Shown one piece after another: positions 3,305 through 20,432 of a DNA stretch of 34,044 nt. Within the stretch, counting starts at the first letter, position 1. Each line of letters begins with the position of its first letter. The stretch covers positions 10,969 through 45,012 of the forward strand of contig VBOT01000021.1 in NCBI GenBank assembly GCA_005893225.1. Direction: 5' to 3'. A program made the position numbers and the translations under genes. The notes under the pieces are model-generated. The model searched no databases and was not told the DNA's origin. It worked only from the letters and a program-made list of their open reading frames with translations. The stretch comes from Candidatus Eiseniibacteriota bacterium (GTDB lineage: Bacteria; Eisenbacteria; RBG-16-71-46).

Positions 3305-4492
3305 CTACGCCGCTCCCAGCGCCCCCTCAAGATCCTCCCAGAGATCCTCCACATCCTCGATCCCCACCGACAGCCGCACCAGCCCCTGCGAGATCCCCGC
3401 CTGGGCCAGCTCCTCCGGGCTCATGTGCCGGTGCGACGTGTGGGCCGGCAGCGAAGCGAGCGACTCCACGCCTCCGAGGCTCGGCGCGTGGCGCACCAGC
3501 TCGAGCCCATTCACCACGCGCTCGGCGGCCGCCATGCCTCCGCGCACATCGAAGGCCAGGACGGGCCCGAAGCCCAGCATCATCTGCCGCCGCGCGATTT
3601 CGTGGCCCGGGTGCCCCTCGAGGCCGGGGTAGAAGACCTGCGCCACCCGCGGGTGCTTCGCTAGCCGCCGCGCCAGCTCCAGGGCATTGGAATTACCCCG
3701 CTCGACCCGGATGGGGAGGGTTTTGAGGCTGCGCTCGATTAGCCACGCCATCTGCGGGTCGGGCACGGCGCCGAACACCGAGCGCACGTTGTAGACGCCG
3801 GCGAGCAATTCGCGACTGCCAAGCGCCACGCCCGCGAGGAGGTCGCCGTGCCCGCCGATCGACTTGGTGGCGCTGTACATCACGAGGTCGGCGCCGAGCG
3901 GCATGCACTTCTGCCCGACTGGGGAGGCGAAGGTGTTGTCCACGGTGAGGAGCGCGCCGTGGCGGTGCGCGAGAGCGGCGGCATGCTCGATGTCGACCAC
4001 GCACAAGGTGGGATTGGTCGGCGTCTCGATATGGAAGATTCTCGTGCCGCTGCGGAAGCCATCCTTCCAGCTCTCGGGCTCGCGCGCGTCGACCAGGGCG
4101 CACGACCAGCCGAGTCGCTCCTTGCCCCAATGCAGGGCATCGAGGGTCCCGCCGTAGCACTGGCGCAGGGCCACGACGTGGTCCTTGGCGTGCAGGTTGG
4201 CGAGCAGCACGCCCGTGATGGCCGCCATCCCCGAGGGAAAGAGCAGCGCCTCTTCCGTCCCCTCGAGCCCGGCGAGGCGCTCCTCGCAGGCGCGCAGCGT
4301 CGGGTGTCCGAGGCGCTGGTAGAAGGCGCCCGCCGCCCCGCGATCCCTCTCGACCAGCATCGACTCCAGGCTGTCGAACGAGAACGTGGAGGAGTGGATG
4401 ATGGGCGTGCTCACCGCGCCCGCGCGCCGGCGGGAATCGCCGGCGACCGCGCGGGTATTGCTGCCGTGACCGGTGCGGCTCCTGGTGGCCAT
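3305..4492 (-). CDS. Trans-sulfuration-family PLP-dependent enzyme (Cys/Met metabolism, gamma-lyase type)
   Basis: Motifs 'IETPTNPTLCVVDIEHAAALAHRHGALLTVDNTFASPVGQKCMPLGADLVMYSATKSIGGHGDLLAG' and 'GLVRLSVGIEDVEDLWEDLEGAL' are characteristic of the Cys_Met_Meta_PP family. Confidence 0.92.
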   Translation of the reverse strand: MATRSRTGHGSNTRAVAGDSRRRAGAVSTPIIHSSTFSFDSLESMLVERDRGAAGAFYQRLGHPTLRACEERLAGLEGTEEALLFPSGMAAITGVLLANLHAKDHVVALRQCYGGTLDALHWGKERLGWSCALVDAREPESWKDGFRSGTRIFHIETPTNPTLCVVDIEHAAALAHRHGALLTVDNTFASPVGQKCMPLGADLVMYSATKSIGGHGDLLAGVALGSRELLAGVYNVRSVFGAVPDPQMAWLIERSLKTLPIRVERGNSNALELARRLAKHPRVAQVFYPGLEGHPGHEIARRQMMLGFGPVLAFDVRGGMAAAERVVNGLELVRHAPSLGGVESLASLPAHTSHRHMSPEELAQAGISQGLVRLSVGIEDVEDLWEDLEGALGAA

Positions 4493-4519
4493 GCGCGGTC
4501 CTCCTTCCCGAAGGTTGGC

Positions 4520-4641
4520 GCAGGCTGCGGAGAAAGCCGATCACTGCCTTGCTCGGTCGCTCCTCGCTGCGACGTATCTTGCAGATACGACTCGCTCGTC
4601 GCTTCCCTCGCGCCTTGTCCTCGGCTTTTTCCGCAGCCTGC
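4520..4641. repeat. Palindromic repeat element copy A (terminal inverted repeats, internal hairpin)
   Basis: Left arm gcaggctgcggagaaagccga (4520-4540) pairs with tcggctttttccgcagcctgc (4621-4641), 20/21. Interior contains the hairpin cgtatct-tgc-agatacg. Arms are shared with the element at 18716-18795. Confidence 0.75.
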
Positions 4642-4655
4642 TAGATTCTGCCGGC

Positions 4656-5723
4656 ATGATACCCCACAGGCCCGCGCCCACCATCCGACCCGTGGACCCC
4701 GGCCCGGTGCGCCGGGTGCTCTTGATCCGCCCGCGCTACCTGGGCGACATCTGCCTCACGCTGCCGGCGCTGGACGCCGTGCGCGCCCAGGTCGCCTACC
4801 TCACCGAGCGCGAGAGCGCCCCGCTCATCGAGGGAGACCCGCGCGTGGATGAGCTAATCGTGGTGCCGAGAAGTCCCGGCCCGCGGGAGAACATCACGCT
4901 CATTCGTCGCCTGCGCCGCTTCGCGCCCGATGTGGCGTTCGACTTCTTCTGCAATCCGCGCACCGCGCTCTGGACCGCGCTCTCGGGCTCCCGCGTCCGC
5001 GTGGGTTATCCGAACAAGGGCTGGCGCTCGGCGCTCTACACGCATCAATCGCGGCCGCGCACGCTCTCGGCGGTTGGCTTCCACCTCGCCTCGCTCGCCG
5101 CCCTGGGCTGGCCGGCCCGCGAAACAACGCCCCGGCTTCACATCGGTGAGCAGGCCCGCAGCGAGGCAGCCGCCGCGCTCAGGGCGCTCGGCGTTCCCGA
5201 GGGCGCGGTCCTCGTCGGATTCCATCCCGGAGCCCGCTGGGAGACGCGCCGCTGGTTCCCCGAGCGCTTCATCGAGCTGGCCGGAAGGTTCTTGAGCGCC
5301 CGCGAGGATGGCGTGGCCCTGGTGAGCGGCGGACCGGCAGAAGCCGATCTGGTCCGGAGCATTGTCTCCGCGCTGCCGCCAAGACGGGCGCACGCCGTCG
5401 TGGCCTGGCCGATTGCGCGCTTCGTTGCGCTCCAGGCGCGATGCGCGGCGTTCGTGTGCGGCGACACGGGCCCGCTCCACACCGCGGTGGCCGCCGGCGC
5501 GCCCACGCTCGGGCTCATGTCGCGCAACCGGCCGGCGATGTTCTTCCCCTACCCTGCCTCCCTCGGTCATCGCGCCTACTACGCGCGCGCCGAGTGCAGC
5601 CCGTGCGATCGCGACGTCTGCGCGGACCTGCGCTGTCTCAGGCGCCTCACGGTGGAGGGGGCCTGGAATCTACTCTCCGCGATGCTGGGCGAAAGGGCTC
5701 GTCGCGCGACTGGCGGTTCATGA
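4656..5723 (+). CDS. Glycosyltransferase family 9 (ADP-heptose:LPS heptosyltransferase-like)
   Basis: 'RRVLLIRPRYLGDICLTLPALDAVR' N-terminus, 'VGFHPGARWETRRWFPERFIELA', 'FVCGDTGPLHTAVAAGAPTLGLM' are GT9 hallmarks. Confidence 0.9.
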   Translation: MIPHRPAPTIRPVDPGPVRRVLLIRPRYLGDICLTLPALDAVRAQVAYLTERESAPLIEGDPRVDELIVVPRSPGPRENITLIRRLRRFAPDVAFDFFCNPRTALWTALSGSRVRVGYPNKGWRSALYTHQSRPRTLSAVGFHLASLAALGWPARETTPRLHIGEQARSEAAAALRALGVPEGAVLVGFHPGARWETRRWFPERFIELAGRFLSAREDGVALVSGGPAEADLVRSIVSALPPRRAHAVVAWPIARFVALQARCAAFVCGDTGPLHTAVAAGAPTLGLMSRNRPAMFFPYPASLGHRAYYARAECSPCDRDVCADLRCLRRLTVEGAWNLLSAMLGERARRATGGS

Positions 5724-18236: not shown

Positions 18237-18714
18237 CGGCAACGGGTCCCTGGACCCGCAGGCGGGGATCTTGTTCGACGTACCGAGCACCTCGGCCGCT
18301 CCCCTGTTCACGTTCACATTCAACTCGGCAGGAACGTTTCCGTTCTTCTGTCGCCCTCACGAGTCCTTCGGCATGAAGGGTGTGGTCGTCGTCTCGACTC
18401 CAGCCGGCGTGCCGCCGGTCGCAGGCGGCAACATCGCGATCGGATTCACGTCGGGTCCGGCTCCGAATCCGAGCCGCTCGGGAGTGAGTTTCGGCTTTGC
18501 ACTCAGGGAAGGCGGCCGCGTGGAGGCCCAGGTCCTCGACGGCCAGGGGCGGGTGATCGCGACGGTCATGGATCGGGACGTCGAGGCGGGATCCCATACC
18601 GAGGCCTGGGACGGGCGGACGAGAACGGGAGCCCGGGCCCCTGCGGGCATTTACTACTTGCGCTTGCGACTCCCGGGGTTTGCAGGCACGCGCCGCATCG
18701 CGCTCGCCCGCTGA
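18082..18714 (+). CDS. Plastocyanin/cupredoxin-domain protein with FlgD-like C-terminal domain (5' end displaced by apparent frameshift)
   Basis: Type-1 copper pattern 'GSHTITNG ... FPFFCRPHESFGMKGVVVV' (His...Cys-x2-His-x4-Met). C-terminus 'PAPNPSRSGVSFGFALREGGRVEAQVLDGQGRVI...APAGIYYLRLRLPGFAGTRRIALAR'. Confidence 0.8.
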   Translation: MAAAADTFLVGPNSSFRFDTDGNLSTAIDTAKIQVGQSILWRWVTGSHTITNGNGSLDPQAGILFDVPSTSAAPLFTFTFNSAGTFPFFCRPHESFGMKGVVVVSTPAGVPPVAGGNIAIGFTSGPAPNPSRSGVSFGFALREGGRVEAQVLDGQGRVIATVMDRDVEAGSHTEAWDGRTRTGARAPAGIYYLRLRLPGFAGTRRIALAR

Positions 18715-20432
18715 AGCAGGCTGCCGACAAACCCGGACCCACGCGCCGTGTGGGTGCCCCCGGAGTTCTCGTCCTCGGCTTTGTCGGCAGCCTGCAAGGG
18801 GCGCACCCGCGGCGCGCCGAAGCCACCCCCGCCCGGGCTCGCGACCGTCAGCACCGCTCCCTCCCGCAGGTCGATCTGGAACTTGCCGGGCATGAGCCTC
18901 GGCGCGGCGTCGCGGCGTTCCTGCACCAGGTTCTCGCCCGGCCGCCCGGCGGCCCCACCCTGGAGGCCGTAGGGCCCGCGCGAGCGCCGGTCCGAGATCA
19001 CCGTGACCCGCGACCGAGCGAGCAGCTCGACCACGCGCTCGATGCCGTCGCCGCCGCGGAAGCGACCCTGCCCGCCGCTCCCGCGGCGGATCCTGGTCGC
19101 GAGCACGCGGATCGGATAAGCATGCTCGAGTGATTCGATCGGCGTGTTCCGGGTGTTGGTCATGTGGCCCTGCATCGCCGAGGCGCCATGCCACCCGGGG
19201 CCGGCCCCGTGCCCGCCGGCGAGCGTCTCGTAGTAGGCGAACGGCCGCCCGCTCAGAGGCTCCGTCCCCCCGATCAGAAGGTTGCTCATCGTGCCGTAGC
19301 TCGCCGCGGGCACGCGGTCGGGCAGCGCCTGCGCCAAGGCACCGAGCACCACGTCGACGATGCGCTGCGAGGTCTCGACGTTCCCCGCGGAAACCGCGGC
19401 GGGCGGCAGTGGGTTCACCACCGTGCCGCGTGGGGCTATGACCTCGATCGGCCGGAACGCGCCGTCGTTGACGGGGAAGTCGCCGCCCAGCACGCAGCGC
19501 AGCGCGTACGAGGCGGCGGCCCTGGTCACCGGCTCGACCGCGTTCACCGGCCCGGCCGTCTGCGGGCTCGAGCCGGTGAAGTCGACCCGCACGCGATCGG
19601 CGCCGATCGTGAGCGTGGCCGCGATCCTCACCGGCTCGGGCGTGAGCCCGTCGTCGTCGAGCGCGTCCTCGAAGCGGAAGGTGCCGCGCGGCAGCTCGCC
19701 GATCGCGGCCCGCACGCATCGCTCGGCGTGATCCATCAGGAGTGCCGCAGCGCGGCGGAGCTCGGCCGCCCCGCGGCGCCGCGCCCACTCCCCGAGCCGG
19801 CGCGCCCCGGTGGCCTGCGCGCCGAGCTGGGCGTCGAGGTCGGCGCGCCGCTCGTCCGGCGTGCGCACGTTGGCCAGCAGCAGGCGCAGGACGTCGGGGA
19901 CCGGCCGGCCCGCGCGCGCCAGGAACACCGGTGGGATGCGCAGGCCTTCCTCGTACACCTCCCGCGCGAGCGGCATCGAGCCCGGCGCGGCGCCGCCGAT
20001 GTCGGCGTGGTGGGCGCGCGTCGCGACGAAGAAGTCGGGCGAGCCCGAGCGCGTGAGCAGCACCGGCGAGACCAGCGTCAGGTCGGGAAGGTGCGTGCCG
20101 CCCGCGAACGGATCGTTGAGCATCACGGTGTCGCCGTCCCGGAACGGCCCGAGCTCGAGCGCCGCCTCGACGGCGCGCGGCAGGCTCCCCAGGTGGACCG
20201 GGATGTGCGCGGCCTGGGCCACCAGGCGGCCTCTCGGGTCGAACACCGCGCACGAGTGGTCGAGCCGCTCCTTGATGTTGGGCGAGTGCGCGGTCCGCAT
20301 GAGGGTGGCTCCCATCTCCTCGGCGGCGGCGGCGAACAGGCCCTGGTAGAGAGCGAGACGCACGCCCTCGCCGGGCCGCGGCTTCTCCCGGCCCCGGGCG
20401 CCCCGGCGAGCGCTCCTCGCCCGCCCCCTCAT
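18654..20432 (-). CDS. hyuB: Hydantoinase B / oxoprolinase family protein
   Basis: 'LYQGLFAAAAEEMGATLMRTAHSPNIKERLDHSCAVFDPRGRLVAQAAHIPVHLGSLP', 'VMLNDPFAGGTHLPDLTLVSPV', 'HHADIGG', 'GGGGFGAP'. ATG overlaps the hyuA TGA (ATGA). Confidence 0.92.
   Translation of the reverse strand: MRGRARSARRGARGREKPRPGEGVRLALYQGLFAAAAEEMGATLMRTAHSPNIKERLDHSCAVFDPRGRLVAQAAHIPVHLGSLPRAVEAALELGPFRDGDTVMLNDPFAGGTHLPDLTLVSPVLLTRSGSPDFFVATRAHHADIGGAAPGSMPLAREVYEEGLRIPPVFLARAGRPVPDVLRLLLANVRTPDERRADLDAQLGAQATGARRLGEWARRRGAAELRRAAALLMDHAERCVRAAIGELPRGTFRFEDALDDDGLTPEPVRIAATLTIGADRVRVDFTGSSPQTAGPVNAVEPVTRAAASYALRCVLGGDFPVNDGAFRPIEVIAPRGTVVNPLPPAAVSAGNVETSQRIVDVVLGALAQALPDRVPAASYGTMSNLLIGGTEPLSGRPFAYYETLAGGHGAGPGWHGASAMQGHMTNTRNTPIESLEHAYPIRVLATRIRRGSGGQGRFRGGDGIERVVELLARSRVTVISDRRSRGPYGLQGGAAGRPGENLVQERRDAAPRLMPGKFQIDLREGAVLTVASPGGGGFGAPRVRPLQAADKAEDENSGGTHTARGSGFVGSLLQRASAMRRVPANPGSRKRK
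18716..18795. repeat. Palindromic repeat element copy B
   Basis: gcaggctgccgacaaa (18716-18731) / tttgtcggcagcctgc (18780-18795), perfect 16 bp, extendable to about 20 bp with one mismatch. Inner hairpin acccac...gtgggt. Arms and the 'tcctcggcttt' flank match copy A. Confidence 0.8.

Follow-up and report, generated by a model that had tools for sequence, protein, structure and literature searches.

The palindrome at positions 4520..4641 of the window, that is, of the whole stretch of 34,044 nucleotides analysed here, is probably a copy of a non-autonomous, ERIC-like miniature mobile element: an imperfect palindrome of about 122 bp that inserts at TA, often in CTAG, with two conserved internal motifs and with arms that are free to vary while they pair. 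This copy, which we call the focal element, is a member of an ERIC-like class and is itself new.

The focal element and the GT9 promoter

The preliminary description had drawn an element with near-perfect 21-bp terminal inverted repeats and an internal hairpin, filling most of the gap between two divergent genes, and this picture holds. The focal element is 122 bp long and its core reads on the + strand; the general covariance model R3, described below, matches it at 4520-4640 with 116 bits. The arms of the outer stem, at 4520..4540 and 4621..4641, are 80 nt apart and 20 of their 21 positions are complementary (95%). Inside them lies motif I, with its 5' side at 4544..4552, reading CTGCCTTGC in this copy and CTGCGTTG in the family consensus, and its 3' side, CGCGCCTTG, at 4609..4617. 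The apical hairpin at 4573..4589, CGTATCT-TGC-AGATACG followed by ACTC, has a 7-bp stem formed by 4573-4579 and 4583-4589. All these features are given on the + strand.

Such a structure is not expected by chance. Folded as RNA, the element reaches -62.5 kcal/mol, with a z-score of about -6.3 to -6.4 against shuffled sequences; folded as single-strand DNA, its z-score is -4.8. The arm motif has 4 matches in the window, where 0.02 are expected and no shuffle gets to 4, and 16 in the host genome, where the reversed control has none. A scan of the focal region with a terminator consensus yielded nothing.

The two neighbours are a gene for a PLP-dependent enzyme of Cys/Met metabolism, on the minus strand at 3305..4492 (PF01053, E 2e-115), and a glycosyltransferase family 9 (GT9) gene, on the plus strand at 4656..5723 (PF01075, E 1e-16). 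Their divergent start codons are 163 bp apart, and the element occupies 122 of these. At least 12 genomes of the family contain a close relative of the GT9 gene; in 11 relatives it is adjoined by the PLP gene, always divergently and always without the element. Nine of these 11 orthologous promoters contain the pattern KTGGCR-(17 to 19 nt)-TANNNT. In the host genome, the corresponding hexamers are a -35-like TTGGCG at 4515..4520 (+), whose last base is the first base of the element, and a -10-like TAGATT at 4642..4647 (+), which abuts the right edge and whose TA is the right-hand flank. They are separated by 121 nt, instead of 17-19 nt in the relatives: since both abut the element, it took the place of the original spacer, which is gone. 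Scanning 4300-4900 with the sigma-70 consensus gave no other promoter candidate.

Because the spacer has been replaced, the GT9 promoter, recognised here by its conserved pattern, has most likely been silenced or rewired by the focal copy in this lineage. The preliminary description had supposed an influence on the neighbouring genes, and the position of the element should indeed affect expression of the GT9 gene. The locus is a natural experiment, in which -35- and -10-like hexamers 121 nt apart can be compared with eleven undisturbed orthologous loci.

Copies, target sites and arms

The host genome (G000) is a MAG of 3.37 Mb in 219 contigs. BLAST finds 23 matching stretches in it and, together with arm searches, about 20 elements, six of them full-length, the focal copy included. 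The earlier proposal of a repeat family, rather than a lone hairpin, is thus borne out: the copies are not confined to the two in the window. In other copies an additional hairpin, GGACCCACGC-nnn-GCGTGGGTACC, stands between arm and core, where it occupies either or both of two constant positions, and in some copies the core is deleted, leaving palindromes of 45-55 bp.

The second copy in the window, at 18716..18795 (no strand assigned), had been described as a recurrence of the arms and inner flank of the focal element. These parts are indeed common to both, but the core has been swapped for a different inner hairpin, ACCCACGCG..CGTGTGGGT, and R3 gives no score there: it is a core-less derivative of the extra-hairpin type. 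It starts 1 nt past the stop codon (18712-18714) of a plus-strand gene. Read on the minus strand (18654-18795), the same copy is in frame and makes up a tail of about 27 residues, LQAADKAEDENSGGTHTARGSGFVGSLLQ, of a Hydantoinase_B protein, whose Pfam domain stops at residue 541 of 592; this tail overlaps the end of the gene on the opposite strand.

Several other arrangements were observed among the copies of the host genome. A second hairpin module, ACCCACGCG-nn-CGCGTGGGTACC, is present on contigs C18, C32, C53, C116, C127 and C209 and at 18737-18760 of the window, again at two fixed arm-core positions; its consensus has seven matches in the genome, six of them inside elements and the seventh at C10:9978. 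Two copies on contig C212 (locus L111, 1597-1708 and 4493-4576) have the core replaced by an AT-rich insert with TTTTAAC/AAAAGT repeats. A short deleted copy (L032/L085, C79:8095-8140) lies immediately before a tRNA-like sequence, GCCCGGGTGGTGGAACTGGTAGACACG, and copies L170, L183, L200 and L202 likewise adjoin tRNA-like sequence.

When the homologous arm ends of the host copies are aligned, TA stands just outside 14 of the 37 ends, preceded by C in 11 of them. The background frequency of TA is 1.0% over the window and 1.6% in intergenic sequence, and the excess has a probability of about 1e-12 even at an assumed 3%. TA flanks both sides of several copies in genome G012 and in distant genomes, and this is not universal. 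Target-site duplications had been proposed as a check: TA flanks are common, but for no insertion was a clean TA duplication found by comparison with a closely related empty site. At the focal locus, the right-hand TA belongs to the -10-like TAGATT, which has equivalents in the relatives that lack the element, so TA is there a property of the target.

Most copies lie next to stop codons. Considering open frames of at least 110 codons that run towards an element, the element's end is at most 4 nt from the incoming stop for 15 of 18 host copies, 13 of 17 copies in the family and 6 of 17 distant copies, compared with 1.5-3.6% under random placement. The usual stop is C|TAG, where the element supplies the G. 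Frames that enter the element meet a TAG or TGA of its own, which makes this proximity partly mechanical; it shows which sites are tolerated rather than a targeting of stops, and the focal copy is an exception to it. The window contains 15 occurrences of CTAG, one of them in the body of a predicted gene, clear of the stop: CTAG may be rare in genes, which would confine the usable CTAG sites to stop codons and spacers. The orientation of copies with respect to the gene is mixed, about 10 being sense and 5 antisense.

A loose pattern finds the core on six named contigs, all of Candidatus Eisenbacteria, and a stricter one on none. The search was extended with three covariance models, all built without ERIC: R1 from Eisenbacteria copies, R2 with distant copies added, and R3 as the general model. 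Model R1 detects copies in 15 of the 20 genomes of the family; unexpectedly, it also detects them in five genomes related at the level of the domain only. At E <= 1e-6, R2 finds copies in 32 of 385 genomes: 15 belong to the family, one to the same class, and 16 have no more than the domain in common with it. Full-length homologues outside the family thus occur in 17 of the 365 genomes sampled there, and for 16 of these the domain is the only shared rank. There are up to 9 copies per genome, 9 being the number of candidates scored with R2, and full copies mostly measure 119-127 bp. By eye, the distant matches of R1 and R2 show both inner motifs, in the layout arm, CTGCGGCGTT, inner stem, TGCGGCGTAC-loop-GTACGCCTCACTCCTC, inner stem, CGCGCCTTGCAT, arm. 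Relatives of the focal element and of those of genomes G133 and G132 were sought on plasmids, and none were found; viral contigs gave none either. Rfam has no match at E <= 1 for the focal element, nor at seven distant copies tested.

The outer arms coevolve between copies. Within a copy, each arm matches its partner better than it matches the arms of other copies, and the host copies show 31 symmetric departures from the consensus, against a mean of 7.5 and a maximum of 18 in 5000 re-pairings of the arms. Relatives keep the core with outer arms that are entirely different and still self-complementary, such as CCTAGGCTCCGTTAGGAGCC, CTGGCTCGGTCCGAGAGC and GCGGTGTCTGAAAACCCC. In an alignment of 19 members, 12 pairs have changed on both sides, and none of 500 shuffles matches the covariation score or the percentage of paired positions; in alignments A1 and A5 alike, the observed covariation score is reached by none of 500 shuffles. 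Thirty diverse members have 279 double-changed cells against 82 in shuffles, a count flattered by the fitting of that alignment to the structure; the unfitted alignment A1 leads to the same conclusion. When the partner is displaced by one column, the paired cells fall from 90-95% to about 30% (from 90% to 31% with 30 members). Covariation extends into the core, with changes from A-U to G-C (columns 27/105) and from C-G to G-C (columns 48/84). The conserved inner motifs are TGCGTTG / CGCGCCTTG, which is motif I and is kept in Eisenbacteria and in distant genomes, and CGTAC-loop-GTACG-CTC. Matching arms can be explained by selection for pairing or by one arm being repaired from its partner at replication; either could produce them.

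How the element may move

Given how much the arms vary, recognition of the folded form and of the inner motifs by the enzyme would be the more economical explanation. The element would be moved by a trans-acting enzyme that recognises the folded hairpin and the internal motifs, with no fixed terminal sequence. Most of the resulting copies would be tolerated because they touch a stop codon, the first base of the element completing C|TAG. These stop-adjacent copies may be transcribed as a 3'-end hairpin and affect termination or mRNA stability, by analogy with the effect that ERIC is reported to have in Yersinia; the focal copy would instead have replaced the -35/-10 spacer of the GT9 promoter. 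The mobilising enzyme itself was not found among the Y1 and IS630 loci of the family or the Y1 loci of distant carriers.

The preliminary description had called the element REP- or MITE-like and named a TnpA-REP (Y1) enzyme as a possible partner. The MITE-like form stands, with its empty orthologous sites, but membership in REP is not supported, given a unit of about 120 bp, long pairing arms and TA flanks. A REP or REPIN (BIME-like) element would be spread by a REP-associated Y1 transposase (TnpA-REP/RAYT) via single-stranded hairpins, and the focal family does resemble REP, BIME and REPIN in being multicopy, extragenic and palindromic, in keeping its paired structure and in the possibility of forming such hairpins; moreover, Y1_Tnp genes (PF01797) are present in 19 of 20 family genomes and in 13 of 17 distant carriers. 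However, REPs are defined as palindromes of 20-40 bp with a GTAG or CGTC tag (PMC3733652), and the focal family has a much longer unit, no such tag and no linked RAYT. Scanning the flanks of Y1 and IS630 loci with R3 revealed an adjacent copy at 1 of 61; this is the Y1 gene of G014, the only tnpA of the family with a copy in the gap downstream, the others being empty sites. No Y1_Tnp match was obtained in the copy-rich genomes G217 (8 copies) and G332 (6 copies). In the host genome, a damaged Y1 gene (L036, on C83) has no copies beside it, and the palindromes that border the Y1 gene with the AIRYVRTQ motif are of another family. A TnpA-REP partner is thus unsupported and was rejected for lack of linkage in the R3-scanned flanks of PF01797 genes, in the family as in the 17 distant carriers; we judge a REP origin very unlikely.

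Two settings of Y1 genes were observed along the way. On contig C47 of the host genome (L037, about 830-1960), a Y1 gene whose AIRYVRTQ motif looks intact stands among tandem palindromes, CCCGGGCTNAGAGCCCGGGCTCGGC and GCGCCCTGTNAGGGCGC, in a REPtron-like setting whose repeat family differs from that of the focal element. At loci L036 and L063-L080 of family genomes (host copy G000:C83:5963-6223), a single-copy Y1 (IS200-like) gene follows a lexA-like gene, assigned by eye and fully read in L036 only, and often faces a convergent gene for an EamA-type transporter. Ahead of the Y1 gene stands a conserved TGCACATnnGTTCA, which we take to resemble a LexA box of the Myxococcus type. The usual catalytic-tyrosine motif is not obvious in this gene, and the host copy seems to have suffered an internal deletion and a frameshift. 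It may possibly be a domesticated transposase under SOS control.

If the element were instead a MITE of the IS630/Tc1-mariner group, a DDE transposase would cut its ends and duplicate TA, with a preference for CTAG. This accords with the TA and CTA flanks and with the IS630-type transposases of 9 of the 20 family genomes, some with CTAG-type ends, and it has a precedent in the RUP repeat of pneumococcus (PMC2229807). Yet none of the IS630 ends examined in the family resembles the arms, and an IS630 partner was rejected on that ground; the host's C32 copy is cut off by the end of its contig. Many arm positions also vary within one genome, which an enzyme reading a terminal sequence should not tolerate, and we regard this origin as unlikely. 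The element could also be immobile, a structured RNA serving as a terminator or stability hairpin at 3' ends, kept vertically and spread by ordinary duplication or recombination. Its structure is strongly conserved, its placement is at gene 3' ends, and its short forms resemble terminators made of an A-tract, a stem and a T-tract; a possibly related family in Geobacter was termed short RNA elements (PMC2700814). But orthologous sites are empty, orientation to the gene is mixed, the ends at TA are sharp, and many relatives lack the T-tract, so that this reading seems quite improbable. A non-autonomous mobile palindrome, recognised by its fold, remains the reading that we prefer.

Comparison with ERIC and other repeats

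RUP and Correia/NEMIS, compared by description, are small and TA-flanked like the focal element, and QMITE, which overlaps gene 3' ends and stop codons (PMC5896051), is by description like the focal family in that placement. Unlike the focal family, RUP has fixed terminal repeats tied to an IS, and QMITE2 has long variable direct repeats. The multicopy intergenic family described in Geobacter in 2009 (PMC2700814) has the centre GRCGTAGCGCTGCTACGCC, close to the CGTAC-loop-GTACGCC of the distant homologues; judging by this central palindrome, it is possibly a further relative of the focal family.

The closest likeness is to ERIC, also called IRU or RU-1, an imperfect palindrome of about 122-127 bp with a central hairpin within long arms. 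ERIC shares with the focal family its TA ends, its intergenic location, its placement at gene 3' ends and cases of in-frame read-through, all of which are published for ERIC together with its layout and length (PMC2229807, PMC10969869). Its reported hosts are Enterobacteriaceae and Vibrionaceae (PMC10969869), whereas the focal family inhabits Eisenbacteria and other distant lineages. The ERIC segments TGCGTTGGCT..GCCGCCTT are in register with motif I, while the inner stem (CCCCAG/CTGGGG) and the apical loop differ, and the sequence has otherwise diverged.

ERIC sequences, on which ERIC-PCR typing is based, have been recognised since around 1990; we know of no transposase identified for them, nor of an identified origin or mover. 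We assembled seven real copies from E. coli and other Enterobacterales (8.7 kb), fetched with a query that we take to be the ERIC consensus and that matched 5393 of 5426 E. coli genomes. Full-length matches on the correct strand were obtained for three of the seven with R1, four with R2 and six with R3; they are weak, the best having an E-value of 0.001 in 8.7 kb. All other matches of R3 to these loci at E <= 1 are short hairpins, none of them full-length, and a sequence-only profile of the core (nhmmer) found no match in the ERIC copies.

Judging from these alignments, common ancestry of the focal family with ERIC is plausible, not established. A bolder conjecture, which we advance tentatively and hold to be somewhat doubtful, is that the focal element and ERIC are members of one superfamily of structured, mobile palindromes that extends across bacteria and whose enzyme would read a folded hairpin with two inner motifs, leave the arms free if paired, and target TA in stop codons and promoters. 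As far as we have searched the open-licence literature, neither the breadth of the ERIC-like class nor its covarying arms have been described. The layout of ERIC, found in unrelated bacteria with covarying arms and two fixed inner motifs, is a concrete structural signature, which can be used to seek the enzyme in complete genomes and to discriminate between recognition of a hairpin and recognition of a terminal sequence.
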